Shown in pieces: positions 4,831 to 22,692 of a DNA stretch of 25,742 bases. The position numbers were made by a program, and so were the translations under genes. The notes beneath the pieces were generated by a model. That model was not told where the DNA came from. It saw only the letters and a list, made by a program, of their open reading frames with translations, and searched no databases. The stretch is from positions 383,099 to 408,840 of the forward strand of contig CAMPET010000009.1 in NCBI GenBank assembly GCA_946803715.1. The letters are read 5' to 3'. The stretch's first letter is position 1. Every line of letters starts with the position of its first letter. Source of the DNA: Beroe ovata (taxonomy: Eukaryota; Ctenophora; Nuda; Beroida; Beroidae).

Positions 4831-5505
4831 ATGGCTGACTGGGGGTGGGGCAAGCTTCTGACATTCACCGTCTCCGGCTTATTTATAATTGGCTCACTTA
4901 TTTCTCTTATAATTTGCGGAGTTTTGGTATCAAAGCCTAACTTCCACGGGGCGAAATTCAAGGAAGGGGCATGTTCTCTTGCTACGAGAGAGATTGATAT
5001 GGATGAAATGCCTCTTATGAGGTAAGACATTGCAAACTTACAGATTCAAATCCAGTCTCACATCAATTGCTCTATCACAACATTTATCTCATGACCGGTG
5101 TGACACAGGTGTGACTGTGGGGGTGATGATGATAACTGCTATAGCTACTACCCATGTCTCACAATCGAAGGAACATTCTTTGAATTGGACAATTCAACTG
5201 GAGAATACAAGGACGGGGTCCAAGGAACTTTTCACTACAATTACAAGGCGATATCCAAAGGATGTTATATAGTCCCAAGTTGCACACCTAGCTATCTTTC
5301 CAATGAACGACTAGTTCAACGAGTCTGGGATACTTTTTATGATGTACTCAAAGACGTTGACTTCTTTTCGTGCTATGGCAAGGATAATAATTTCTATCTT
5401 TGGAATGATTATTCGAAGAAGAAAGCATACTTGGGTATTTTTGTACCCTTAGGATTTCTGGTTGTAGGAATCTTGGTAGGGGTATGTTTCTTTTTTGTAG
5501 ATTAA
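4831..5505 (+). CDS. KCNMB-like two-pass membrane protein, copy 1
   Basis: This is a two-exon gene (4831-5021 and 5109-5505) of 195 residues with an 87-base phase-2 intron. A short cytoplasmic N-terminus is followed by a membrane segment at about residues 11-34, a large extracellular loop and a second membrane segment at about 172-194. The loop holds eight cysteines shared with the two neighbouring paralogues: one in GAC, a CxC pair at the exon junction, two around NCYSYYPC, two in GCYIVPSC and one in SCYG. It also has an N-glycosylation site (NST). Two membrane spans, a glycosylated loop, a YPCL motif, a C-x-VP motif and a length near 190 fit the BK-channel beta-subunit family, whose members modulate the gating of calcium-activated potassium channels. 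Homology is likely, but a BK partner is inferred only. The insect TipE-type beta subunits are a related alternative. Confidence 0.72.
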
Positions 5506-5969
5506 CAGAACGGATAGAACAATAAGAAGTATCTATAAGAGGAAGGATCAAAAAACAGTGTAGATACTTAGATAGTAAGCAGAATGCAGGTATAAATTTT
5601 GTGTATTGACGTACCTACTACATTTAAGGTAGCGATCCTTTATGTCACGGTGGTCTTTTTTATGTTTTCATATAGGGATGGACAATTCATTTCATTTTGA
5701 TATAATTTTTGCAAAACTAGTTTATAACAAATCGTTATGATCGAATCAAATTATTTCAGTACGTTTTGAGCAATCAATACTTCAAAAAACCAAACTTTTT
5801 AATGTTAATAAGTGTTTCATTTATGAAAAAATGACTCATTATATTCGATTGACATAACAAAATCCTTGACAAAGGTATAATACTAATGCAAGACTCCTTC
5901 ATTTCCTTTATTTGCTTTGTCTCTTTATCACCTACTTAAGTACTTACTCATGTAGAAAACAAGCAAAGA
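5506..5969. other. Spacer between KCNMB-like copies 1 and 2
   Basis: AT-rich DNA carrying the 3' UTR of copy 1 and the 5' region of copy 2. I see no canonical AATAAA for copy 1. A TAG acceptor-like site lies just before the copy 2 start (near 5954), so copy 2 may have a 5' UTR intron. Confidence 0.45.
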
Positions 5970-6691
5970 ATGGGCTACTACTGCAGAGTAGCAACTTTCA
6001 CCACTTCCATGGCACTGATTATTGGATCTATTGTTGCACTGGGGTTGTGCGTTATCATAGTGTCGAAACCCAACTTACATGGGGCCAAATATGAGGAGGG
6101 AGTGTGTCAAATGACTACGACAAGTGTTGATATCGACATAGTGCCCTTGATAAGGTGATTGATCATAGACGGGCAAAAATTTAATGAAAATATTGTATTT
6201 TTGATAATGTTGATAGTTTCGGAAAGTTGAAAATTTCATTATTAACAAGTTAATAACATTTCAGCTGTAACTGTGGGAGGGGGCACAAGTCTGTCTGCAC
6301 ATCTTACTATCCCTGCATCACAGTCTCAGGCACATTCTATCGAGACAAAGATATCATAGAAAAGAACAAGGCAGGGTACAATATTTCCGGAAAAGAGTCT
6401 GGCATCCCAGGAACATTTCACTACGATTATTCAGCCGTTAATGAAGATTGTTTTGGCGTTCCAGATTGCATGTCAGACTACATTTCGAACAAGGAACTTG
6501 TGAGAAAGTACTGGAATGAAACGTGGCTGAATGTCAAAGACGAGGACTATTTCCCATGCTGGGGGAATGATGGCCATATGTACTTCACTATGAAATACTC
6601 TGGCGCAAAAGCCTTTGCCGGGATTTTTCTGCCCGTCTTAGGTTTCATCATTGGTGTTGGTATGGGAGTATATTATTGGAAGAAATGTTAG
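5970..6691 (+). CDS. KCNMB-like two-pass membrane protein, copy 2
   Basis: This two-exon gene (5970-6154 and 6265-6691) encodes 203 residues. Its 110-base intron lies in the same place and phase as in copies 1 and 3, just after membrane segment 1 and the SKPNLHGAK stretch. The first membrane segment is at about residues 9-31 and the second near the C-terminus (about 179-200), followed by WKKC. The loop keeps all eight family cysteines (GVC, CNC, VC..YYPC, DCFGVPDC, PCWG) and has two potential N-glycosylation sites (NIS, NET). It is longer than copy 1 because of an insertion before the GTFHYDYSA motif. The most likely role is an auxiliary subunit of a cation channel at the plasma membrane, as for copy 1. 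That function is inferred from architecture. Confidence 0.72.
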
Positions 6692-6964
6692 CTTCTTAGG
6701 TTATTATGTTCAGAATTTGTTTGGGTTGTTTTACGTTTTTATTAACGATTAAATTAAACTTCAATATTTCTGTTATGATATTCCGAGCACCTCACTTAGG
6801 TAGTTCATATAAGATTCCGGCCTCCGTCTTAGATACCTACAATATTTTGTCACGAGAAGGCTTTTATACATTGGAATATTTGCATTGCCAGCAAATTAAC
6901 ATACCTTAAGACTCGTGATATACCTACATCAAACTTTATAACGCTTTTGACATGACTATCGTAC

Positions 6965-6970
6965 AATAAA
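6965..6970 (+). terminator. Polyadenylation signal AATAAA for KCNMB-like copy 2
   Basis: A canonical AATAAA lies 273 bases after the copy 2 stop codon, in an AT-rich 3' flank. Confidence 0.45.
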
Positions 6971-7322
6971 TATATTCATGTTATGTCGGAATTCTGTTTA
7001 GTCGTAGGTAGGTGGGTAGTTCTTTATCTTGTTTTAATCCTTCACTAAACTTTTCATCTTATTTTGTTTTTAATTAATTTCGTTTTGCATTAATCAATCA
7101 GATAAACCAAATCTGTAGTCAGAAGTTCTTTTGTCTTGATATTAACCAATGCTGTGCAATACAGGTGTTTTCCGTCTCAAATCTTTCTCAAACTTGTGGA
7201 CACTAGTCCAGCCTTGAAATATACCACCACTAAGAAGTTAAGAACGTCCTCTTATCTTCTAATGACCAAATTAATACGGACTTCTAGTCTTCTACCCCAG
7301 GTTGATCATCACTAACTCGACC

Positions 7323-8051
7323 ATGATCCCTGCCAATAACTGTTGTAGACGTGGACTCTGTGTTGCATCCTTCGCCATCTTAATCGGATCACTTGTGGCG
7401 CTGGTATGCTGCGGAATCCTTGTGACAAAGCCAAATTTCGCCAAAGCACGGTTTAAGGCAGGAGAATGTGTGCTAACTGAACTGTGTGTTGATGTGGATA
7501 CAGCTCCCATAGTTGAGTACGTAATCATAATCTCCTTATTCTCTAATTGACCTTTTTTATTGATGGCTCCCCCAAATTCAGATCACTCACTCAAGGTTCT
7601 ACATGATAAACTTACATGATCTTTGAATTTTCATAGTTTCATGAAAATTACCCTCTACCTATGGGTGTTCAGGTGCAGTTGCAAAAGAGAAAACACACGT
7701 TGTTACTACCCCTGCATCTCTGTTCGAGCACTATTTCACCCAACTCATAACCGCACAGACATGGTAGAGGGAACATTCCATCTGGACTACGACGCACTGG
7801 GACAATGTTTCGCAGTACCAAAAACTTGTGAGGAGGGATATTCAGCTAACGAAGCATCAGTTCTTCAAGCTTGGAGCATTGTCAATAATAGCATTGTGAA
7901 TGGTAGTTATGTGAAGTGTTGGGGCTTTGGAGAAAATATGATTTTTAAATCTGAATATTCGAGGACCAAAGCCTATTTGGGTGTCTTTGTGCCACTTGGG
8001 TTTATCCTGTTAGGCATTGTTATGATTGTTATTCCAATTTTCATCGAATGA
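7323..8051 (+). CDS. KCNMB-like two-pass membrane protein, copy 3
   Basis: This two-exon gene (7323-7516 and 7673-8051) encodes 190 residues with a 156-base intron in the family position and phase. I chose the ATG at 7323 because upstream in-frame codons contain no other ATG and an acceptor-like TACCCCAG lies at 7293-7300. Membrane segments are at about residues 14-36 and 167-188. The eight loop cysteines are kept (GEC, CSC, RCYYPC, QCFAVPKTC, KCWG), with one extra in ELC. Potential N-glycosylation sites are NRT, NNS and NGS. It is the most diverged copy: the HGAK motif shared by copies 1 and 2 is replaced by AKAR, and the N-terminus is basic and cysteine-rich (NCCRRGLC), which could be palmitoylated. 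The role is inferred as for copies 1 and 2. Confidence 0.7.
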
Positions 8052-9115: not shown

Positions 9116-12100
9116 TTAGCAATGGCAGTTGCAGTATGATTCACTCACATTCTCAGTGTTTATACTTTTGAAGTCTTCACCTCTTCCCAGTGGTTCCTCG
9201 AACTCTGCGTCCATTTCGAGAACAGCTGACGCTTGACCGGTAGTGTCCTGTGAATTAATTGTTTATAATTATAGTAGTGTTATGTATGTGTATATGAGTC
9301 ACCGAGGAGGGAAAGAGTTCTCAAGATAAGGTTCAATTTTTGGAGAAACTAGCGTCCTTGAAGGTGTACGATGTGTGTGCATGCTTGTGTGTGGGACATT
9401 AATCTTGCAGTGAAAGATATCAGTAGAACAACTTTGTTAACCCTAAAGTTGAGCGAGCTGAATGTCTGGTAATCCTCATTTAGTTCGTCGTGCAGAGCGA
9501 GACTCTCATGATCCGAGAGTGAGGAGAGAGATTTGATGTAGCGGACCACGGTCAAACTACTCAAATACTCCATCGCTGTGTTTGATAAATGAAAACTAGC
9601 AGTCCATCTATAACGATTGTATCTGTTATCACAGATTAGATTCTTATCGATTAAAGGCACGAATATGGGTTAATTGCTTGCTTCTCTATACCTAAAAGGT
9701 ATAGCAAACACAATATTAAAATTGATCCAACCGTGTCAACTACTTAGCAGGCAACAAAATAAATCAGAATGAAACGTGAAACGAAATCTGCTCAATTAAA
9801 TGTGTTATTTATTCGAGAAAAACGTTCGTGACAGAGGGAAACTTGAGACTGATAAAACACAGGTGACGTAAGAGAGTGAAAGTCTGATGCAAGATATCGA
9901 ACCAAGAATGAGGCGATTTTGATCAGCCACGCATTCAAATCAGTCCTTCAAGAAATAGGCATTTTACGGACATACATTTAAATTCATTACAATACAACAT
10001 CTTGCGTATTCAATATTTGGATGATCTCAGAACAACCCTCTCTTTGCCTTACGAGTAGGTGCGTTTCTCAGACTACTTGTTTCTCGGACTACTTGTTTCT
10101 CGGACTACTTGTTTCTCAGACTACTTGTAATGCGATATCTAGGTATCTAGAAACCCATACTTTACCTTGCTTGTCATATGCCTGCTGATTTACCGCCAAA
10201 AACCGCCAAAATTACCTCTCCCGATTGCGATTTCTGCTGCACTCTCCTAGACGTACTTTTCTTCCACGACTTGCTTGCTCTTCGCTGCAGAACGTTGTAC
10301 ATTGTCTCTGTATTGGCTTTCAGCTCGGTAGCCTTAGTCCTGAAAATGGAGATGATGAGCCTCTGATAAAGTGCCTCGGCAGAAACCTCAAACATTAAAA
10401 GCTTAAACCACCACACTCAATTAATGGTCATCACGCTCAAATAGATACTTGGCCGTAGTACTTGACCATATTCATCAAAATAAGAGTCTAACTTTGTTTC
10501 TTTCAGCACTGTTTTCATCTCATTCCTGGCTTTGCTGTCCTTCCATTTTGACTTCTTCGAGCTTATGGAATGTGTAATAGCTTCCTTTAGAGTACCGAGT
10601 TGTTGAGCTGTCTTATGACGAGTTTTCGAAACAGATTTCTGAAGTATTTTAAAAAGCTAACTTCACTTGGAGACACTTGCCGAGGAAAACAAGTATACAT
10701 AGTTCTACAATATACTTAAATTTGCAGCAAACTTCAGGTAGTCCGTACTCCAATTTTGGAACTTGAACTAACCTTGAGCATCATTACTGAATAAGATCTC
10801 CTCATTTCGGTCTTTTCATTTTTCTTCTCACCACCCTCATCATCTGCACGATCTTCCTCTTCTTCTCCTTCATTAGAAACCATATCTATTCCATCGTAAA
10901 ACCCTTCACTGCTTGCTTCACTGCAGACTGAGGGTTCTCTAGGACTGGACAGAAGCTTCCCATTAGTGGCTATCTTCGATTGGACAACTTCATCTATAAC
11001 TGGTGAGAGACAAGGTGCGTCTATCGATTGCGGTACCATTTTAGAATAGTTCATAGCAGGATCAAATGGTTGGTATTGAGGGATGTCAGGGAGGGGCTTG
11101 AACGCTTTTGAGGGGCTTCTGAAAGGAACAGGCGGAGGTTTAGGCGGGACGTAAGGAGTGTCCGTTTTACCTAGAGAGTCAATCAGTCGATTTAGTGATG
11201 CATCTTCCGGGGTAGTCAGACTGAATTCCGTCTCATAGTTGGTTTCCCCAATGCCCTCATAAAAATCGCTCATCTCAGATTCATGATGGCCGTCTGGTGA
11301 CTTATCTGTTGGGGCTTCTAACCCCTCATAAAAGTTATCTTCACCTAGACCTTCATATAAATCACCAATATCATTGTCGTTGATTCCCTCATAGAACGAT
11401 TCTTCCATTTCGGCAGAATCTTGTTGGTTGTCCATATTGAATGTAGGCAGAGGGGGCAAACTGCCATGAACACTATCTGCATCACCTTTTCCTGGCTCAT
11501 CATAGAAGGAAGGATCACAGTTCATTGTAGACAAGCCAGGCGAAGGTGTAACATGTCTGATCATGGATGGATGAAGCAACGGTAAGTTCCCTTGATAGCC
11601 CTCTGCTTTAGAGGGCTCATCATAAAAGGCATTGACCTGTTGCCTCGCAGCAACAACCCGTTCTATGTTTGGTGCTAGTGGTGGCTGGATCAGGGGTTCA
11701 CTGTCTGATACATGTGGAATTTCGTCGTAGAATGCTCCTTCGTCCACATCGACTGTTGGAGGAGCACTCTTGTCAAGGGCAGCTGTGTCGTTCAACTCAC
11801 TAGTACTCCCAGAAGGTGGTGCCATATAATATTCTTCTGATTGAGTGGTTTCATTGGGAATATTGTGGACATTATCAGGTAGAGCAGTCTGTGCAATATT
11901 GCATGAGGAGTCCACCCTGCCTGCAAGAGAGTTGTTTCTTGACAGTACCCTGCTCTCAGCATGCAATGAAGTGTTCATATAGAACCCATCTTCATAATTC
12001 TGACTATCTTGCCAAATATTGGCCGGCAGATCATTCCCTTTCTTTAACAGAAGATCACAATGACTTGCATCGTTGTCGAGGTTTGGAGCACTGTTGTGAA

Positions 12101-12451
12101 TGTATTGATCGCATTGGAGAGTCAGGGATGGGAGAGCAGGGGCACTCTGATGCTGAGTGAATGGACCAGATAGCTCCTTCAACTGAAATGATAGGTACAT
12201 CGTCAATTATGTCAATTGGAGTAAGCTGGAGAGTTTCTTTGTATTGAAATTACCGATAGAATAATTTCACCAACCTGAAGAGGGGTATCATAAGTTTCCT
12301 CTGTTTCATCATTGCATTCAGTGACTATATCTATGTCCATGCCATCCCTAAACGTATGGGTGGTTGAAATAGATTGATCATCTAGAACTGTCACAATGAA
12401 CACACAATGAAATTGTATATAATACCAATTTGATCCAGAAAAGTTGAACAT
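9116..12451 (-). CDS. Multi-tyrosine-motif adaptor-like protein, five exons
   Basis: I do not recognise the family. Exons in transcript order are 12275-12387 (possibly extended to the ATG at 12449-12451), 10773-12182, 10493-10638, 10216-10339 and 9116-9247; all junctions agree in phase. The large exon encodes 470 residues, acidic and disordered, with repeated FYDE/FYEG/FYDG motifs, a YEGI-x8-YEGL pair (11346-11393) that matches the ITAM spacing, and a proline-rich stretch (PPKPPPVPFR) that could bind SH3 domains. The later exons encode a basic, helix-prone region rich in Lys and Ser. The tail ends in YCNCHC. This suggests a cytoplasmic scaffold phosphorylated by Src/Syk-type kinases, by inference only. 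The 5' end is uncertain: a good acceptor precedes 12387, but no upstream exon is visible before the ARID2 polyadenylation signal. The donor gttaga at 10492 is weak; without it, exon 3 runs to TGA at 10417. Confidence 0.6.
9442..9575 (-). other. Candidate alternative exon of the tyrosine-rich gene
   Basis: This lies in the last intron of the gene and has an acceptor (aacacag) and a GTTAAC donor. It is open for 44 codons starting MEYLSSL and rich in coding-like residues. It enters in phase 1, so it joins only if the preceding exon uses a later donor at 10193, extending that exon to 10194. It leaves in phase 0, which fits the last exon. It could be a cassette exon or chance. Confidence 0.3.
10064..10127. 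repeat. Tandem repeat, four 16-base copies
   Basis: Four head-to-tail copies of tttctcggactacttg, two with one base changed, lie in the last intron of the tyrosine-rich gene. Confidence 0.9.
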
Positions 12452-12882: not shown

Positions 12883-15800
12883 TTACAAATCTATGTAACA
12901 AGGTTGCTTTTTGACCTCCAATTGATTTTCATCAACTTGACTACTTGGTTCATAGTGTGATGAGTCACAAGTGAATGCTAAGCAATCTGCCATAACCTTG
13001 TTCACTTCTAATGTCGACATTGCATTCATTGCACAAGTTTCAACAATTCCACTCAGGTTTGGCCTGTGGCGAACAAGGTTTCGCAGAATGAGTCCTGCAA
13101 GAAGTCGAAGACTGCGGGTAACTGGACATTCTGGATCGTCAGTCCATATGGGAGTTTCCTCTGGTTCTGGGGGTGGTTCATCTGGCACTTCATTATCTGA
13201 TTCGAAAGCAGAATCATTGAGCAGTGGTATTCGACTAGACCTGCTCATCGTTGATGAGTGAGACACAACAGGTTTCTCAGTTCTTGACTTGATCGGTGAA
13301 TGTGTGAGGGAGCATTTGGTAGTTGAGGAAGTTGCACATACGACAGGCTCACTGTAAACATTAGTACAAGATGTTATCACCGAATTATTCACTGATGGTG
13401 TCAAAATGAGAGAAGATGGAAGAATCAGGGTATTAGGTGAAGATCCATTTTGCATCTGCATTGAAACTGAACTAAAGACTACATCTCTGTTCACTGATGA
13501 CAATATGATTGTTTTGGATGATGAAGCTATTGGTGCCAGAAAGGGTGTTGGGGCTGGATTCGACACCAGAATATTATGAGTCTGTACAATGCCTGATTGG
13601 ACAGGGAGCAAAGTACAGGGAGGTGGCTGAGGTACGAGGAGCACTCTCTGCGGTGGGTTGACTGATTTTGGAGGAGAGGTCACGAGAAGGACAGGTTTCT
13701 TCGGGGATATCATCGTCTGTGGCGTTATCAGTAGAGGATTTACTGCTTGATTGTTCTGTGATGCAATAGGAAAAATCACTGGCTTCAGGATCTGGCTCTG
13801 AGGCACCATTACCACTTGCTGAGGGGAACTGGATGGTGAAATTACCAAATCAGAGCTTACTGGTTGTTGCTTTGGTAATAAGATTACAGGTTGCTTAATC
13901 ATGGGTGGACTTTCATGTGGTAGGATAACAACGTTCTGTTTTGGTGTTACAGCTGGTTGATTGGAATTGGGCATGAAAAGAACGGAATTTAAGGGCTTCA
14001 AGATTTTCTGAGGACTAGACTGAGGAATTAGAATAACTTGTCCTGCCCCAGAGGAAACTTGCTGACTCACAGGAATAATATGAGAAGCATTCCCAGCTTG
14101 GTACGGACTGCTCATGATCACATTCGATGGAGGTACATTTGAAACCAGGATCATTTGCTGAGGATTGTTGTTGACAATGACCGGCGGTTGACTCACAGAA
14201 ACGACGATTGTGTGCTGACCAGTAATTTGCCCTTGCTGCTGCTGGAGATCAATCCTAGGCAAAATGCGGCAGTTGGTAGAAGTGCTCACGAGTGCTTTGG
14301 GTGGAGACCCATTGTTCATAGCTGACTGCACGGATACTATGTGAGGATCTTGTTCTTCAATATGTTTTGAATTTGAACCATCGTTACTGGATGCAAAATT
14401 TGACACGACTGTTTTAGGAACTGGCTTGTATTCTAGCGTACTTGTATCTACCGAAACATTGTGCTTTGTTTTAACTTGAGGAGAAGGAGTCAGTGAACAC
14501 AGTTCAGATCTTGATACAAGAATGTCGCTATCTATTTTCAACTTAGGAGAGTTCAATTCAACCTCGGGTCTTTGATCATCATCAAGATTCGCTACATCGA
14601 CAGCTCCATGGTTTTCAGCTTGTGGCAAGTCACCTACAACTAACGATGGATTCTTCTCATCAACTCTCGAGACAGACGTATCATTAAAGTTTGGGGATGC
14701 TCCCTTGTCGAATATTGGTGACCCTCCTCTATCAAATGTTGGTGACCCTCCTCTATCAAATGTTGGTGACCCTCCTCTATCAAATGTTGGTGATCCTTCG
14801 TTATCGAATTTTGGGGATGCTCCTTTGCCGAATGTTGGTGACCCTCCCTTATCAAATGTTGGTGAAGCTTCTCTGTCAAATATTGGTGAATCTCCTCTAT
14901 TACTGTCATTTGGTTCTAGTCTTGGTCTTGATGATTGCAGATTGAATGTTGGTGAAGCTGGTTGCTCAAATATTGGAGATGAGGGCCTTTCTTCAATATC
15001 ATCATACCCTGGAGACTTTGAGGCGTCCGATGAAGCATAGCCATCAAGTCGAGCTCTTTTCTCAGGTGTAGTTGATAAATCGAGAGTCAGAGTTTTCTTG
15101 TACTTCTTAAATTCGCAACTCTGTTTGTGGCGGAATGAGGTAAAAATGGAGTGTTTTGGAATTGGAGGGAGCATAGAGTTTTCTAAATTCTCATTGCTTT
15201 TGTTCCCTTCCAATTCTTCAATTATTTCAGGGTCAACATCCATTTCTTCTTCAATTATTTCAGCAAGTACAACCTTTGCAGTTGTTTTATTGTTGGAGAA
15301 GGATGCATTCTCTTTGTCTTTATGTGATTGCTCCGTTACAAAATCATATGGATCACTACCCAGGGGAGGTACTTTTGAGCTTCCGATTCGATTGAAAAGA
15401 GATATCTTCTTAGGCTTTACTGAGGTCAGATTTGAATCATCTTTCAGAGCAGCTGTAGATTCTGAAAGTGTTTCTTGTTCTTGGAAGTCTCCTTTTTCAT
15501 CTTCAGAGTTCCCGACCACATTGTCTTTTGCTGAGTAATCCCAGACGTTTTCATCATTTTCATTTTCATGATGCTTTTCCGAATCACACATTTTTCCCTT
15601 TAATTCATCAATCAGCGTTGTGTTTTCATTTTCTGGTTCAATTTCTACTGAATTTAGCAAATTTTTGTGTTCTTTTTTCGTTTTGACCAAATTGACAACT
15701 TTCAGATTCCTGTGACTCATCTGATAAGCTGATACTCTCAGGAGCTTTAGAATCACATTCAAGAAATGGGGAATTGTCAACAACTTATCACAAGCTTCGG

Positions 15801-17301
15801 TTCCTATTGAGGTAATTTCATAAAGAGAATCCAATACAGCATGAAGCAATTGAACATCTGGTACCAGTAAAAGTTGTGCAAGGCGTGAATAGTGGGCACC
15901 TTTTATGTGCCTCAACAAAAATTCGTGATTATCAGCTTTCTGGCACAAACCAGATAAAAACTCTAATCCTGATAAGATCAAAAAGTGATCAGGTGAAACA
16001 ATGAAACCCATAACTTTTTTCATGACATATTCTGATTGAAAAGGGCTCTCATCAACTTTCAGCTCTTTAGTCAGTAGAGAGAGCATGCCTACACTATTAT
16101 TCCTTATAGCCAGTATTCTGCACTGCAAAGACTCCATAAGATAGCTCATGAAAAATGGTGAGTTGAGTAACACAGTACAATTCGTTGGCACATGGCACAG
16201 GTTGAAGAGTATCACACTAACTTGTGTTGATCTTGTCTTTTCTGAATCATACCCATTGTTAAAGAAAGAATTTTCCTGCTGAGAGTCCTCCCAGAAATTG
16301 ACAATTTTTTCATCTGACCAATATTCAGAAGAAATAGTGCCAAGAATGCCAGTGTTGGCAAGAATTGCGCCAAGCAAACGAGGATATTTGGGGAGAGGAA
16401 GACACCAGGTCTCTGTCAAGACAAGAAGTGAATTGAGACCAAATTGAACCTCATGAGGTAAACCACATTCCAGCTGCCTTATGATAGGTTCAATGTTGTA
16501 TCCTTCAGGTGGACCAGAAGGTTTGGGGAGGCCTCTATTTTCAATAACAATTTCTGAAGATGACACAACTTTCAGTGTATCTGTTTCAGCTCCTCCATCT
16601 CTTGTCTCTGCTTCCAATGGGGCTTCATGACAAATTTCATTTTTCAAAGGGGGATGAGGCGAGCTTATTGTTAAGAGCTTCTTATTCTCATCCTTAACAA
16701 AGTTTTCCCACAGGTTAGGGGATGGCCTCTCTTTCAACAACACTTTTTTGTGAATGTTTACTTCTTTACGTTTATATGTTCTTTTGGTTGTGGCATTGAG
16801 GTTTGGAATCGGTAAATTACTTGGGTATCTTGTACAAACCTTTTTATATGGAGTTGTTTCTGAAGATGAAAACTCCTTAGGTTGTACTTGAGCCAAACTT
16901 TTTCTCCTTTTGTAAACCCTTTTTTGGGGCTTTTGTTGCATTGGGGAGTGCGTTTTGAAGCTGATTGGTGAGAGATTGGAAGTACTCTCTGATGAACTTT
17001 TTTCATAACATTCCTCAATGTAACGCTTGTAAATCTTAGAAAGAACAACTGCATTCATGTCACCCTTGAAACCTAACTCTCTTGCAACAGTCCTCCATCC
17101 ATCAACATTAGAGGTGTAAGAAGCATCACCATTACTCTTGCATTTAAGGACCCTTGCAAAGCAATATAGTTTGTATAAGTCCACAGCTGAATCTTTGAGT
17201 AAACATGGATAAGTAAGGCCAAATTCCTCTATTGCAACAGAAAGCTTCTTTTCAAAAACTTGACGTTCAATGCTGCTACCCCTCTTCTCCATAATTACCA
17301 T
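12883..17301 (-). CDS. ARID2: ARID2/BAF200-like PBAF chromatin-remodelling subunit, single exon
   Basis: A 1472-residue intronless reading frame. ARID2 is the signature DNA-binding subunit of the PBAF form of SWI/SNF in the nucleus. Residues about 15-100 form an ARID domain (VDLYKLYCFARVLK, GWRTVARELGF, KIYKRYIEECYE). Residues about 265-535 match the ARID2 armadillo-like region, including YNIEPIIRQLECGLPHEV and LLGAILANTGILG. The last conserved block, residues about 1390-1445 (TRSLRLLAGLILRNL to MADCLAF), matches the extreme C-terminus of vertebrate ARID2. The middle is long, disordered, and rich in Ser, Pro, Val and Gln, with an SPTFD repeat. I find neither the RFX-type domain nor the C2H2 zinc fingers of the vertebrate protein. 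The start is the ATG at 17299-17301; a second in-frame ATG is three codons later. A very short overlapping upstream frame precedes it unless a 5' UTR intron (acceptor TTTTAG near 17327) removes it. Confidence 0.9.
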   Translation of the reverse strand: MVIMEKRGSSIERQVFEKKLSVAIEEFGLTYPCLLKDSAVDLYKLYCFARVLKCKSNGDASYTSNVDGWRTVARELGFKGDMNAVVLSKIYKRYIEECYEKSSSESTSNLSPISFKTHSPMQQKPQKRVYKRRKSLAQVQPKEFSSSETTPYKKVCTRYPSNLPIPNLNATTKRTYKRKEVNIHKKVLLKERPSPNLWENFVKDENKKLLTISSPHPPLKNEICHEAPLEAETRDGGAETDTLKVVSSSEIVIENRGLPKPSGPPEGYNIEPIIRQLECGLPHEVQFGLNSLLVLTETWCLPLPKYPRLLGAILANTGILGTISSEYWSDEKIVNFWEDSQQENSFFNNGYDSEKTRSTQVSVILFNLCHVPTNCTVLLNSPFFMSYLMESLQCRILAIRNNSVGMLSLLTKELKVDESPFQSEYVMKKVMGFIVSPDHFLILSGLEFLSGLCQKADNHEFLLRHIKGAHYSRLAQLLLVPDVQLLHAVLDSLYEITSIGTEACDKLLTIPHFLNVILKLLRVSAYQMSHRNLKVVNLVKTKKEHKNLLNSVEIEPENENTTLIDELKGKMCDSEKHHENENDENVWDYSAKDNVVGNSEDEKGDFQEQETLSESTAALKDDSNLTSVKPKKISLFNRIGSSKVPPLGSDPYDFVTEQSHKDKENASFSNNKTTAKVVLAEIIEEEMDVDPEIIEELEGNKSNENLENSMLPPIPKHSIFTSFRHKQSCEFKKYKKTLTLDLSTTPEKRARLDGYASSDASKSPGYDDIEERPSSPIFEQPASPTFNLQSSRPRLEPNDSNRGDSPIFDREASPTFDKGGSPTFGKGASPKFDNEGSPTFDRGGSPTFDRGGSPTFDRGGSPIFDKGASPNFNDTSVSRVDEKNPSLVVGDLPQAENHGAVDVANLDDDQRPEVELNSPKLKIDSDILVSRSELCSLTPSPQVKTKHNVSVDTSTLEYKPVPKTVVSNFASSNDGSNSKHIEEQDPHIVSVQSAMNNGSPPKALVSTSTNCRILPRIDLQQQQGQITGQHTIVVSVSQPPVIVNNNPQQMILVSNVPPSNVIMSSPYQAGNASHIIPVSQQVSSGAGQVILIPQSSPQKILKPLNSVLFMPNSNQPAVTPKQNVVILPHESPPMIKQPVILLPKQQPVSSDLVISPSSSPQQVVMVPQSQILKPVIFPIASQNNQAVNPLLITPQTMISPKKPVLLVTSPPKSVNPPQRVLLVPQPPPCTLLPVQSGIVQTHNILVSNPAPTPFLAPIASSSKTIILSSVNRDVVFSSVSMQMQNGSSPNTLILPSSLILTPSVNNSVITSCTNVYSEPVVCATSSTTKCSLTHSPIKSRTEKPVVSHSSTMSRSSRIPLLNDSAFESDNEVPDEPPPEPEETPIWTDDPECPVTRSLRLLAGLILRNLVRHRPNLSGIVETCAMNAMSTLEVNKVMADCLAFTCDSSHYEPSSQVDENQLEVKKQPCYIDL
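14674..14889 (-). repeat. 24-base in-frame tandem repeat in the ARID2-like gene (nine SPTFD units)
   Basis: Nine exact-length units of 24 bases encode eight-residue repeats of the type SPTFDRGG. Three adjacent units are nearly identical at DNA level, which suggests recent expansion. Two more diverged SPIF/SPTF motifs lie N-terminal to the array. Each unit contributes a Ser-Pro site that a proline-directed kinase could use. Confidence 0.95.
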
Positions 17302-18018
17302 GTTTCATGGAGATTCTCTGGGCTCCTAAAATCAAAGAATATGTGAATAATATGATCAAATACTTCATGAAAAGGCAATTTTCAATCGAGGAAATAATAA
17401 ATATTGAGTCATTACACAATAGATTTCAGACATCAATAAAGTTAGTTTAATGTGCTTCCTTAATAAAGATGCGTATGCATATATCATCATGACTCAGATC
17501 TGAGGAGCATTGCATGTGCAGATTTTGAACTATTATAAACATTGCCATGGATGCGTGGAACTACTGTAGTAGCAAAAAGGGAGCTCATTCCTGATGATAG
17601 TGCTTAGGTTACATTGTCCTGTCTTGGTTAATTAAGAGAGTTAAATCTGTGGTGGGAAGCTGAGATTCACTCCAGTAGTCACTCTCATATATTGTACCTA
17701 AATTTGAAATAGAATTCTAGAGATGCTAAAAATCTAAGAATTTAGAGAGTTAGATTCGTGGTGGGATGTGTGGGTGATGCTAGGACTTGGCTGTCGATGA
17801 TAGCCCCTGTCGAGAATTTCATTGCGCGCGGCTCGCGTCAGCTGGGCCTAGCATCGCCAGGCAATGCTAGGACATACAAATGAATTTCGGCACCATTGTC
17901 AATTGTCCAATTTTTGATTCACATGATCGAAATTGGTCAAATTTCATCAGACCTTTGTTCCTCGTCCTCGATCGCGCGCTAAGTAGAGGTCAGATAGAAT
18001 CCGAAAACCGAAATTACT
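17302..18018. other. ARID2 5' flank grading into repeat DNA
   Basis: No gene seen. The first 300 bases should hold the ARID2-like promoter and 5' UTR; I see no clear TATA box. A direct repeat with the core GTGGTGGGA occurs near 17634-17660 and 17742-17770. An inverted pair (cctagcat / atgctagg) lies near 17847-17871. CpG-rich DNA begins around 17824. Confidence 0.5.
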
Positions 18019-18124
18019 GTTCCCGCGCTGCGTGACCCAAATACTCCGCGCGCGCTGCGCGTCTCCGTCCTTTCTACGACTTTTCAGTTCACTGAGTAGA
18101 ACAGGGGCGCGCAACGTGTGCACA
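18019..18124 (+). repeat. CpG-rich interspersed repeat, copy 1
   Basis: First of three copies of a unit that starts gttcccgcgctgcgtgaccc, contains a run of CG dinucleotides and ttttcagttcactga, and ends ggggcgcgcaacgtgtgcaca. The composition contrasts sharply with the surrounding AT-rich DNA. Confidence 0.85.
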
Positions 18125-18163
18125 GAAATTACTTGTCTGGCGATGCTAAACCGTTGTCAGATT

Positions 18164-18307
18164 GTTCCCGCGCTGCGTGACCCAAATACTCCGCGCGCGC
18201 TGCGCGTCTCCGTGGTTTGGAGACCACGGACTTTTCAGTTCACTGACCAGCGACTTTTCAGTTCACTGATGCAGCTGAGTAGAACAGGGGCGCGCAACGT
18301 GTGCACA
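18164..18307 (+). repeat. CpG-rich interspersed repeat, copy 2
   Basis: Same start and end as the first copy but longer. It carries an insertion with a short inverted repeat (ggtttggagacc) and a duplicated cgacttttcagttcactga segment. Confidence 0.85.
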
Positions 18308-18308
18308 T

Positions 18309-18420
18309 GTCAGATTTTATCTAACCTCAGTTTCTCGCGCACCTTCATCGAAGGCCTGTTTCGGCCTTCGATGAAGGCGCGGCGCGAACGCGCGAGAAAC
18401 AGATCAGGTAACATCTGACA
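18309..18420. mobile_element. Foldback (MITE-like) hairpin element
   Basis: A 112-base inverted repeat. The outer ends are TGTCAGAT and ATCTGACA, and the inner arms at 18342-18356 and 18363-18377 are perfectly complementary over 15 bases with a six-base loop. The arms between are imperfect. A single-arm relative lies near 18655-18710. No coding capacity. Confidence 0.6.
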
Positions 18421-18502
18421 AGCTAAACCGCTGATGCGGCTTGCGTCTGAGAATAAGTTTGCGCCGCGGTGCAAGACGGAATTCTAGACAGGATCTATTG
18501 AT

Positions 18503-18608
18503 GTTCCCGCGCTGCGTGACCCAAATACTCCGCGCGCGCAGCGCGTCTTCGTGGTTTCTACGACTTTTCAGTTCACTGAGTAGAACAGGGGCGCGCAACG
18601 TGTGCACA
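18503..18608 (+). repeat. CpG-rich interspersed repeat, copy 3
   Basis: This copy is nearly the same as the first, with the same start and end motifs. Open frames in all three copies come from the GC-rich repeat and are not taken as genes. Confidence 0.85.
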
Positions 18609-20860: not shown

Positions 20861-21648
20861 TTACTTATTACCCTTATTACCTCCATATGGAAGTATCTGC
20901 CACAGATTGGAAATCTCCACACTACTGACATCTACCCAGTATGTGTTATCTCCCTTCTTTATTTCAGAAACCAAGTGTTTCCCAGCACTTCTGGACAGTG
21001 TCTTTGTGAGTCTGTAATTTTTAGGTGTTCCAGGAATTTCAGTAATTGTCCAGCATTCATCAACAAGGCGGTGATCTGCACTGTGAACTAGAGCTCTGCT
21101 CAATTCGCTATTAGTTGCTTGTGTGTTGCTATGTACTACTAACATCCGGCCTTGGTTGATCCCTATTATAAGAATCAAACAATTTAGAATTTTCAAGACT
21201 ACAATAGGATACAATTGCATGACAACAATATTTCATTATACATTACATAATACATATCTGCATAATGCTAGTTTGCAATACCTGATATGGCCATGATATT
21301 GTAGCATGATTTGCCGTTGAATATTTTGTGTGTTATTTTCCACCATTGTCCATCCTCTCTCTCCCCTGGGTCAGGCTGTGTGTGTATCCAGTATGACCCT
21401 TCATTCCTTCTCTCAGAGTTGTATGTGATGAACAGACCATCTGCTGGACCACCAACTTTCTTGAAACGGTAGTTGTCTGGCCATGATATGACATCTGAAA
21501 AGTGCATATTTCCAGTAACCTGACTATGGCTGGGAATAAATAATTGCACCGAGATATGGAATTCGTTATCATTGGAATTACCTGACTTTACTGTAGCTCC
21601 GAGGTAGCAGAAAATAGCAGTGACTAATAAACGAGAACCATACAACAT
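20861..21648 (-). CDS. Secreted ricin-B-like beta-trefoil lectin-domain protein
   Basis: Two exons (21282-21648 and 20861-21162) join in phase 1 across a 119-base intron and give 222 residues. Residues about 1-22 (MLYGSRLLVTAIFCYLGATV) form a signal peptide. The rest shows a threefold pattern: NYRFKK, CYNIMA and NYRLTK each open a subdomain, and QWWKI, ECWTI and NLWQI close it. That matches the QxW-type core of ricin-B/R-type lectin domains, which often bind galactose-type sugars. No catalytic or toxin domain is present. Two cysteines, in SCYN and DECW, could pair. Secretion and carbohydrate binding are inferred; the sugar is unknown and the sequence is too diverged to name a subfamily. A donor-like GGAG/gtaata just before the stop leaves a small chance of a further exon. 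Confidence 0.72.
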
Positions 21649-22692
21649 TCTGATGATTGAAAAGTATTTTCATTCCAAGGCATTTTACCTATCAATAAGA
21701 CAGTAATAACAAGCAACAAAATTCCTAGTAGCACTTCATCAGAAAGTAAGGCATGTTCAACCTTGAGAGATTTAACTATTCTAACTACCCGCTCCTTTAT
21801 ACTAGGTACTAGGTAGTTAGAGATGATTGATCAAAGAGAGCACAGACCATGTTCGACTGAATAATTCAGTTGCTAAAGAAGAGTGCATATTCAATGAAAT
21901 AGGCGTGCTAAGGGCTTTACAGGATTTTCATTGAGTCATTCGTCAGGGAAGATACCCACTGTCACATGTCACGGGGGCTTATTCCTATTCAAAGTATAGA
22001 GAATCCGCTGTATATTGGGGATTATGTGCAAAGGAGGACAAAATTTAAAAGTAAGCAACAGCTGTTATAGAGGGGAATGATAAGGTAGGAAGTGAAATTG
22101 AAATCACATTATGGGAAATTAGGCCACGTAGCACCTTACATCCTTCACTATTGGCTAGTGGTAAATTGAACTATTTCTCTAATAATGTTATAATGTAGGT
22201 ATCATCTTTCTAGATGACAATTTACAAAGTGTTAATTGCGGCAAGGCACATATCAATCGCTAAAATAACGATGAAATACTTACCCGAATTTTAGGCCATT
22301 CAAAAATCGGTTCAGCCGATTATTACTAGAACTGTGTATTTTTAGAACTGTGTGAAAGTCGGCCAGAAGTATTATCCGTTAGGTATTGCCAATACCGTAC
22401 CTATTGGCATGTTTATACTTGCGCAACAGAATGATGCTGTCTACCGGGCGCCTAATACTGATGTGGGATTAGAGATCAAAATGCATGTTCGTCTAAATTA
22501 TTCATTAGCAAGACTACAAGAGCGCATGTAAAATTTAAGGGCGTGCGAAGTGACTAGACAAGGAATTCAGAGATTCATTCGTCTACTATAGTATGGGTTC
22601 CATGGGTGGGGTGGAAAACAAAAGGGTCAATATCACAAGAGCCCATGAGGTTTGTCAACGAAAAACACACATAATGGAATGACAATTTATAG
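21649..22692. other. Intergenic DNA, nothing clear
   Basis: The first part is the 5' flank of the lectin-like gene. A small inverted repeat (ctaactac / gtagttag) lies at about 21779-21819. No exon seen. Confidence 0.5.

Follow-up and report, generated by a model that had tools for sequence, protein, structure and literature searches.

The question raised by this locus, a 25,742-nucleotide stretch of Beroe ovata DNA (GCA_946803715.1, contig CAMPET010000009.1, positions 383,099 to 408,840; hereafter the window), is whether three adjacent genes at positions 4831-8051, named g1, g2 and g3, encode auxiliary subunits of the BK (Slo1) potassium channel. Work on BK beta subunits has centred on vertebrates, and the invertebrate relatives described best are subunits that act on sodium channels. 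A preliminary description of the window, made from the letters alone, had proposed a tandem family of such subunits. Considering the data presented below, it is likely that g1-g3 are members of the BK beta-subunit family and serve, most likely, as auxiliary subunits of Slo1.

The family assignment depends in the first place on profile comparisons. The curated cut-off of the Pfam CaKB family (PF03185), 25.1 bits, is passed by all three whole proteins (g1, 34.2 bits, E 2.6e-8; g2, 34.7 bits, E 1.9e-8; g3, 28.1 bits, E 1.9e-6), and no other Pfam family exceeded its cut-off in any family member scanned. The second family named in the preliminary description was TipE (PF16972); none of g1-g3 matched it in Pfam up to an E of 10, although filters may drop very weak matches. 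Whole-genome searches with the TipE and CaKB models were silent, as were their controls, and since the CaKB search missed genes that are present, this silence is no evidence of absence. A seven-row profile (g1-g3, the outside relatives P0001-P0003 and a further gene on contig C54 of the same genome) matches human beta-4 in the PDB at E 2.5e-7; with P0004-P0006 added, the ten-row profile reaches it at E 1.6e-8, the best non-family match standing at E 1.2. The eight loop cysteines occur in the beta-4 order in 12/12 aligned rows, a beta-4 fragment being among these rows. The BK-beta-like architecture that had been proposed is therefore borne out, and homology of g1-g3 to BK beta subunits is established at the level of sequence comparison.

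The family is not limited to the window. In the assembly searched (77.8 Mb, 534 contigs), g2 exon 2 as a query retrieved g1-g3 together with a fourth gene, located on contig C54 (E 0.0086), a single open frame without an intron that scores 5.5e-35 with P0006 as query. With the same P0006 query, a piece on contig C81 was found at E 0.012 (CaKB E 1.5e-4); by our own reading of its splicing it has three exons and encodes all eight cysteines, which makes it a probable family member and brings the count for the genome to four clear members plus one probable. A match on contig C215 (E 0.79) was dropped as chance. In the tree, C54 groups with P0004 and P0005 (support 100/99) and with P0006 (95/95), and P0001-P0003 group together (100/99), while g1 and g2 join P0001-P0003 with only 90/94; the positions of C81 and beta-4 mean little because of their long branches. 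The subfamily of C54, P0004, P0005 and P0006 has the same eight cysteines as g1-g3, and P0006 is, like them, a clear CaKB member (2e-11). It differs in that C54 lacks the intron and all four proteins have a PPPY-type motif close to their C-terminal end. The C54 gene of this second subfamily (locus L004, 1312-2079, G000:C54) reads PPPPY, kept as PPPY or PPPPY in P0004-P0006. The motif is a possible WW-domain ligand, which may hint at control by a ubiquitin ligase.

Each of the three tandem genes consists of two exons, and they lie head-to-tail on the plus strand, coding for 195, 203 and 190 amino acids. In g1, exon 1 (4831..5021) holds the start codon, the first transmembrane segment (TM1) and loop cysteine 1, and is followed by a donor GT at 5022 and an intron of 87 nt (5022..5108); exon 2 (5109..5505) holds the Cys-rich loop, the second segment (TM2) and the stop, although the last few residues of the C-terminal end are uncertain because of a GT-poly-T-AG stretch at the end of TM2. 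The same arrangement is found in g2, where exon 1 (5970..6154) encodes TM1 and loop cysteine 1, the intron (6155..6264) has 110 nt, and exon 2 (6265..6691) encodes the loop, TM2 and the stop. It recurs in g3, with exon 1 (7323..7516; TM1, loop cysteine 1 and an additional C55), an intron of 156 nt (7517..7672) and exon 2 (7673..8051; loop, TM2 and stop). All three introns are GT-AG and of phase 2 and split the codon directly before the loop C-x-C pair, as the preliminary description had stated for their lengths, common place and phase. Two hydrophobic stretches, near both ends, are present in each protein (Kyte-Doolittle 19-residue mean, peaks 2.2-2.9), from which a topology of two spans flanking a large extracellular loop can be proposed. 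The N-termini ahead of TM1 are very short by hydropathy (~7-15 residues), and beyond TM2 there is almost no tail.

The spliced models and hydropathy agree with the earlier account of three adjacent genes with two spans each and eight shared loop cysteines, except that eight is not the exact count for g3, which carries C55 as a ninth. Similarly, the YPC motif announced there is present in all three loops, but the second motif, given as C-x-VP, is in fact C-x-x-V-P (GCYIVP, DCFGVP and QCFAVP). The N-glycosylation sites were also recovered, with one, two and three sequons in g1, g2 and g3, respectively. The three proteins are 38-42% identical to each other over 185-193 aligned residues, with pairwise alignment scores of 434, 341 and 281 against best shuffled scores of -1, -11 and -11 (300 shuffles per pair). 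The proportion of synonymous differences (pS) is near saturation, 0.71-0.90, compared with a nonsynonymous proportion (pN) of 0.39-0.42, a pattern expected of old duplicates retained under purifying selection.

Structural prediction provides a second line of evidence. The full-length relative P0003, 45% identical to g1, gave a model with a predicted local distance difference test score (pLDDT) of 82 and a predicted template modelling score (pTM) of 0.69. The ten best PDB matches of this model are all BK beta chains in the Slo1-bound state, and nothing else was found below E 0.9. By proxy of P0003, a beta-4 fold is predicted for g1-g3, in which the cysteines would probably form four disulfides with the beta-4 pairing.

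If the three proteins are BK subunits, the genome should be considered for possible partners. The search for Slo1 suggested in the preliminary description was successful: the BK_channel_a model matches four pieces at two loci over its cut-off, and the locus on contig C148 supplies a Slo1 with voltage sensor, pore and calcium bowl. Once joined, the pore exons reach 2e-32 with human Slo1 versus 1.1e-7 for the best non-BK channel, and the joined S0-S6 pieces match human Slo1 at 4.2e-64 and fly slowpoke at 7.5e-53. The slowpoke match takes in the S0 piece, starting at query residue 6, which makes an S0 helix likely; the S4 exon has the sequence GMRFMRALRFMQMGEIL, and the pieces of the calcium bowl, when joined, give a match at 3.2e-16. 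Regulation of a BK channel by beta subunits is therefore possible in this animal. The second locus over the cut-off, on contig C129 (L005, L006), is also Slo1-like, and two Slo1 genes may thus be present.

Voltage-gated channels of other types are encoded as well. Two Nav2-type four-domain genes, on contigs C50 and C23, have E in domains II and III and A in domain IV, the domains read. In the C50 gene (L018, G000:C50:282501-291500) two tandem stretches at ~1506-1740, ~40 nt apart, hold near-identical S4 segments (KALRVLRSLRTITVVPG); they are alike at the protein level and do not form a long DNA repeat, they probably belong to domain I of the Nav2-type channel, and the pair look like mutually exclusive exons. 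At least 95 Ion_trans pieces are present, and among the loci read one Cav-like locus stood out, on contig C107 (L020, G000:C107:183001-193000); a ctenophore would be expected to have a single Cav gene. Here 785-1439 and 1496-2162 form a repeat, 90% identical over 676 columns, each copy with an S4-like stretch (KALRALRVLRPLKFIAG), which may represent alternative exons or a recent duplication. A Kv channel with a T1 domain is present too, the genome holding at least 19 BTB_2 (T1-type) pieces; Kv-type matches on C92 and C531 score equally with Ion_trans (132.8 bits on both) and closely with BTB_2 (75.1 and 75.6), and C531 may be a leftover haplotype copy.

Several observations weigh against the assignment of g1-g3 to Slo1 and have to be set beside this evidence. 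A PDB search with the single g1 sequence did not find beta-4 and returned only two weak sortase matches. Among the six outside relatives only P0006 passes the CaKB cut-off; P0003 (15.3 bits) and P0005 (17.7 bits) fall under it, P0001, P0002 and P0004 have no CaKB match, and the own-genome C54 (21.0 bits) and C81 (22.0 bits) are likewise below it. The P0003 model superposes on the beta chains with a root-mean-square deviation of 5-8 A and a TM-score of ~0.5. The loop-fold comparison proposed beforehand favoured BK beta chains for this relative, whereas g1 exon 2, folded alone without exon 1, gave a poor model (pLDDT 52) whose best PDB match stands at E 1.3. The S0 piece of C148 taken alone matches human Slo1 insignificantly (-3.2 bits), g1-g3 seem to have far shorter tails beyond TM2 than beta-4 does, and the Nav2 channels are possible alternative partners.

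The last point leads to the best of the alternatives, in which g1-g3 are members of a KCNMB/TipE superfamily that serve a sodium or calcium channel, as insect TipE serves Para. Since two Nav2-type genes are present, such a partner is conceivable. According to Li and co-workers, KCNMB4 is within reach of a TipE profile (below 1e-5), the two families are proposed to descend from one ancestor whose partner was either a potassium or a sodium channel, with the choice left open, and TipE genes likewise lie in tandem clusters (PMC3240667). However, g1-g3 pass the cut-off of CaKB only and have no TipE match, their loops lack the longer EGF-like form described there for TipE, Teh3 and Teh4 (PMC3240667), and the fold matches of P0003 are Slo1-bound beta chains, with the reservation that the structure library may hold no TipE. 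We regard this alternative as unlikely. Even less probable, and to be given little weight, is the proposal that after a lineage expansion these BK-beta-like membrane proteins have a role that involves no channel, such as adhesion or signalling at the cell surface. The C-terminal PPPY-type tail of the C54 subgroup, a possible adaptor-binding site, and the strong divergence of the paralogues would fit it; we know of no such tail in vertebrate beta subunits. Against it stand the kept eight cysteines, the fold kept in P0003 and the presence of a Slo1 gene. That an unrelated two-pass Cys-rich family came to resemble KCNMB by convergence, as the low identity of P0003 to beta-4 chains (16-19% by Foldseek, 12-16% in VIA alignments) might suggest, is scarcely credible, given that sequence-profile and fold tests agree and that no second Pfam family scores over its cut-off.

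Returning to g1-g3 as Slo1 subunits, it is proposed that each protein makes two membrane passes and has an extracellular domain of ~120 residues stabilised by four disulfides. Vertebrate beta-2 carries an inactivation ball; in view of the very short N-termini, none would be expected here. If the human Slo1-beta4 complex is taken as a guide, each of the genome's own Slo1 channels would bind four copies between its voltage sensors, their extracellular domains forming a crown above the pore, and the subunits would shift the balance between existing gating states, as beta-4 does. In the structural study, beta-4 is described as modulating Slo1 from between the voltage sensors, with an extracellular crown, and its TM2 reaches into the cytoplasm (PMC6934384). 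As the tails of g1-g3 after TM2 are near-absent, unlike those of beta-4, details of how they touch the channel on the inner side of the membrane may not be the same. Local duplication would have given three divergent copies, by which cell types could tune BK differently. Slo1 binding, its modulation and a division of labour among the paralogues are inferred here.

How do these genes compare with known systems? With KCNMB1-4 (PF03185; beta-4 structures 6V22 and 6V35) they share two spans, a ~120-residue loop, eight cysteines in the same order, the YPC motif, N-glycosylation sequons and a Slo1 in the same genome, and the order of extracellular elements, judged on P0003, matches beta-4. They differ in the identity of P0003 to beta-4 of only 12-19%, in the near lack of a tail after TM2 and in the local expansion to three adjacent copies. 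The single phase-2 intron directly before the C-x-C pair may also set g1-g3 apart. The insect TipE/Teh1-4 proteins (PF16972) resemble g1-g3 in two spans, a disulfide-bridged extracellular loop and a tandem gene cluster, and are distantly homologous to KCNMB4 according to two papers (PMC3240667, PMC6259924). The differences are that g1-g3 lack a TipE model match and the long EGF-like loop, and that the TipE/Teh partner is Para (Nav1), while here the two Nav-type loci, in the domains read (II-IV), gave no sign of a DEKA filter.

The preliminary description had taken the source for an early animal, and the gene content agrees with this. Wnt pieces, 11 on four contigs, mark the genome as animal, one of them on C64 being doubtful (short, within a 6033-residue frame), and their number presumably suits ctenophores. 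For innexins, 20 match pieces were spread over 11 contigs; 15 exceeded the cut-off, and contig C34 had five. As reported in print, innexins number 9-19 genes in four ctenophores and were not identified in sponges and placozoans (PMC9949713), and Ctenophora have two Nav2 (DEEA) genes (PMC5095125); another review counts sponges among the groups with two Nav2 genes (PMC6259924). A glass sponge source came into consideration because the genome, at 77.8 Mb, is compact, but the glass sponge Oopsacas minuta is described as being without Nav or obvious Kv channels (PMC10280926). The Nav2-type genes, Kv with T1, BTB_2 pieces and innexins thus argue against a glass sponge, and the innexins against a placozoan. 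No COX1 was found. The innexins and the two Nav2-type genes fit Ctenophora best.

Other features of the window lie downstream of the tandem genes. On the minus strand, an open frame of 490 aa (10734-12206) repeats FYE/FYDE motifs many times and matches nothing in Pfam, and another of 1473 aa (12883-17304) matches ARID weakly (21.6 bits versus a cut-off of 24.1), is ARID2-like by eye and has a tandem SPTFDRGG-type repeat at ~14687-14900. Repeat copies of 84-107 bp, 89-96% alike, within a stretch of locally high GC at 18018-18608 are perhaps mobile-element debris. Two adjoining minus-strand open frames of 123 and 133 aa at 20861-21669, without a Pfam match over cut-off, are possibly small secreted proteins.

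The BK beta kind is already known; what is new is its ctenophore lineage and the expansion there, and no report of KCNMB in a ctenophore was found among the titles and abstracts listed from the open-licence literature; the single paper to contain both terms names KCNMB once, in a reference. The presence of g1-g3 in such a genome suggests that the BK beta family dates back to the earliest animals. We lean towards a history in which ctenophores independently expanded the family to four or five genes and insects later redeployed the fold as TipE on sodium channels. If this history is true, BK channels tuned by subunits would have existed before comb jellies and all other animals diverged, and perhaps before neurons. 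Slo1, Nav2-type channels and several clear family members occur together in this genome, which lies close to the root of the animals, and the question of the ancestral partner thereby becomes testable. The finding would also bear on the shaping of electrical signals in comb jellies, with their unusual nervous system.
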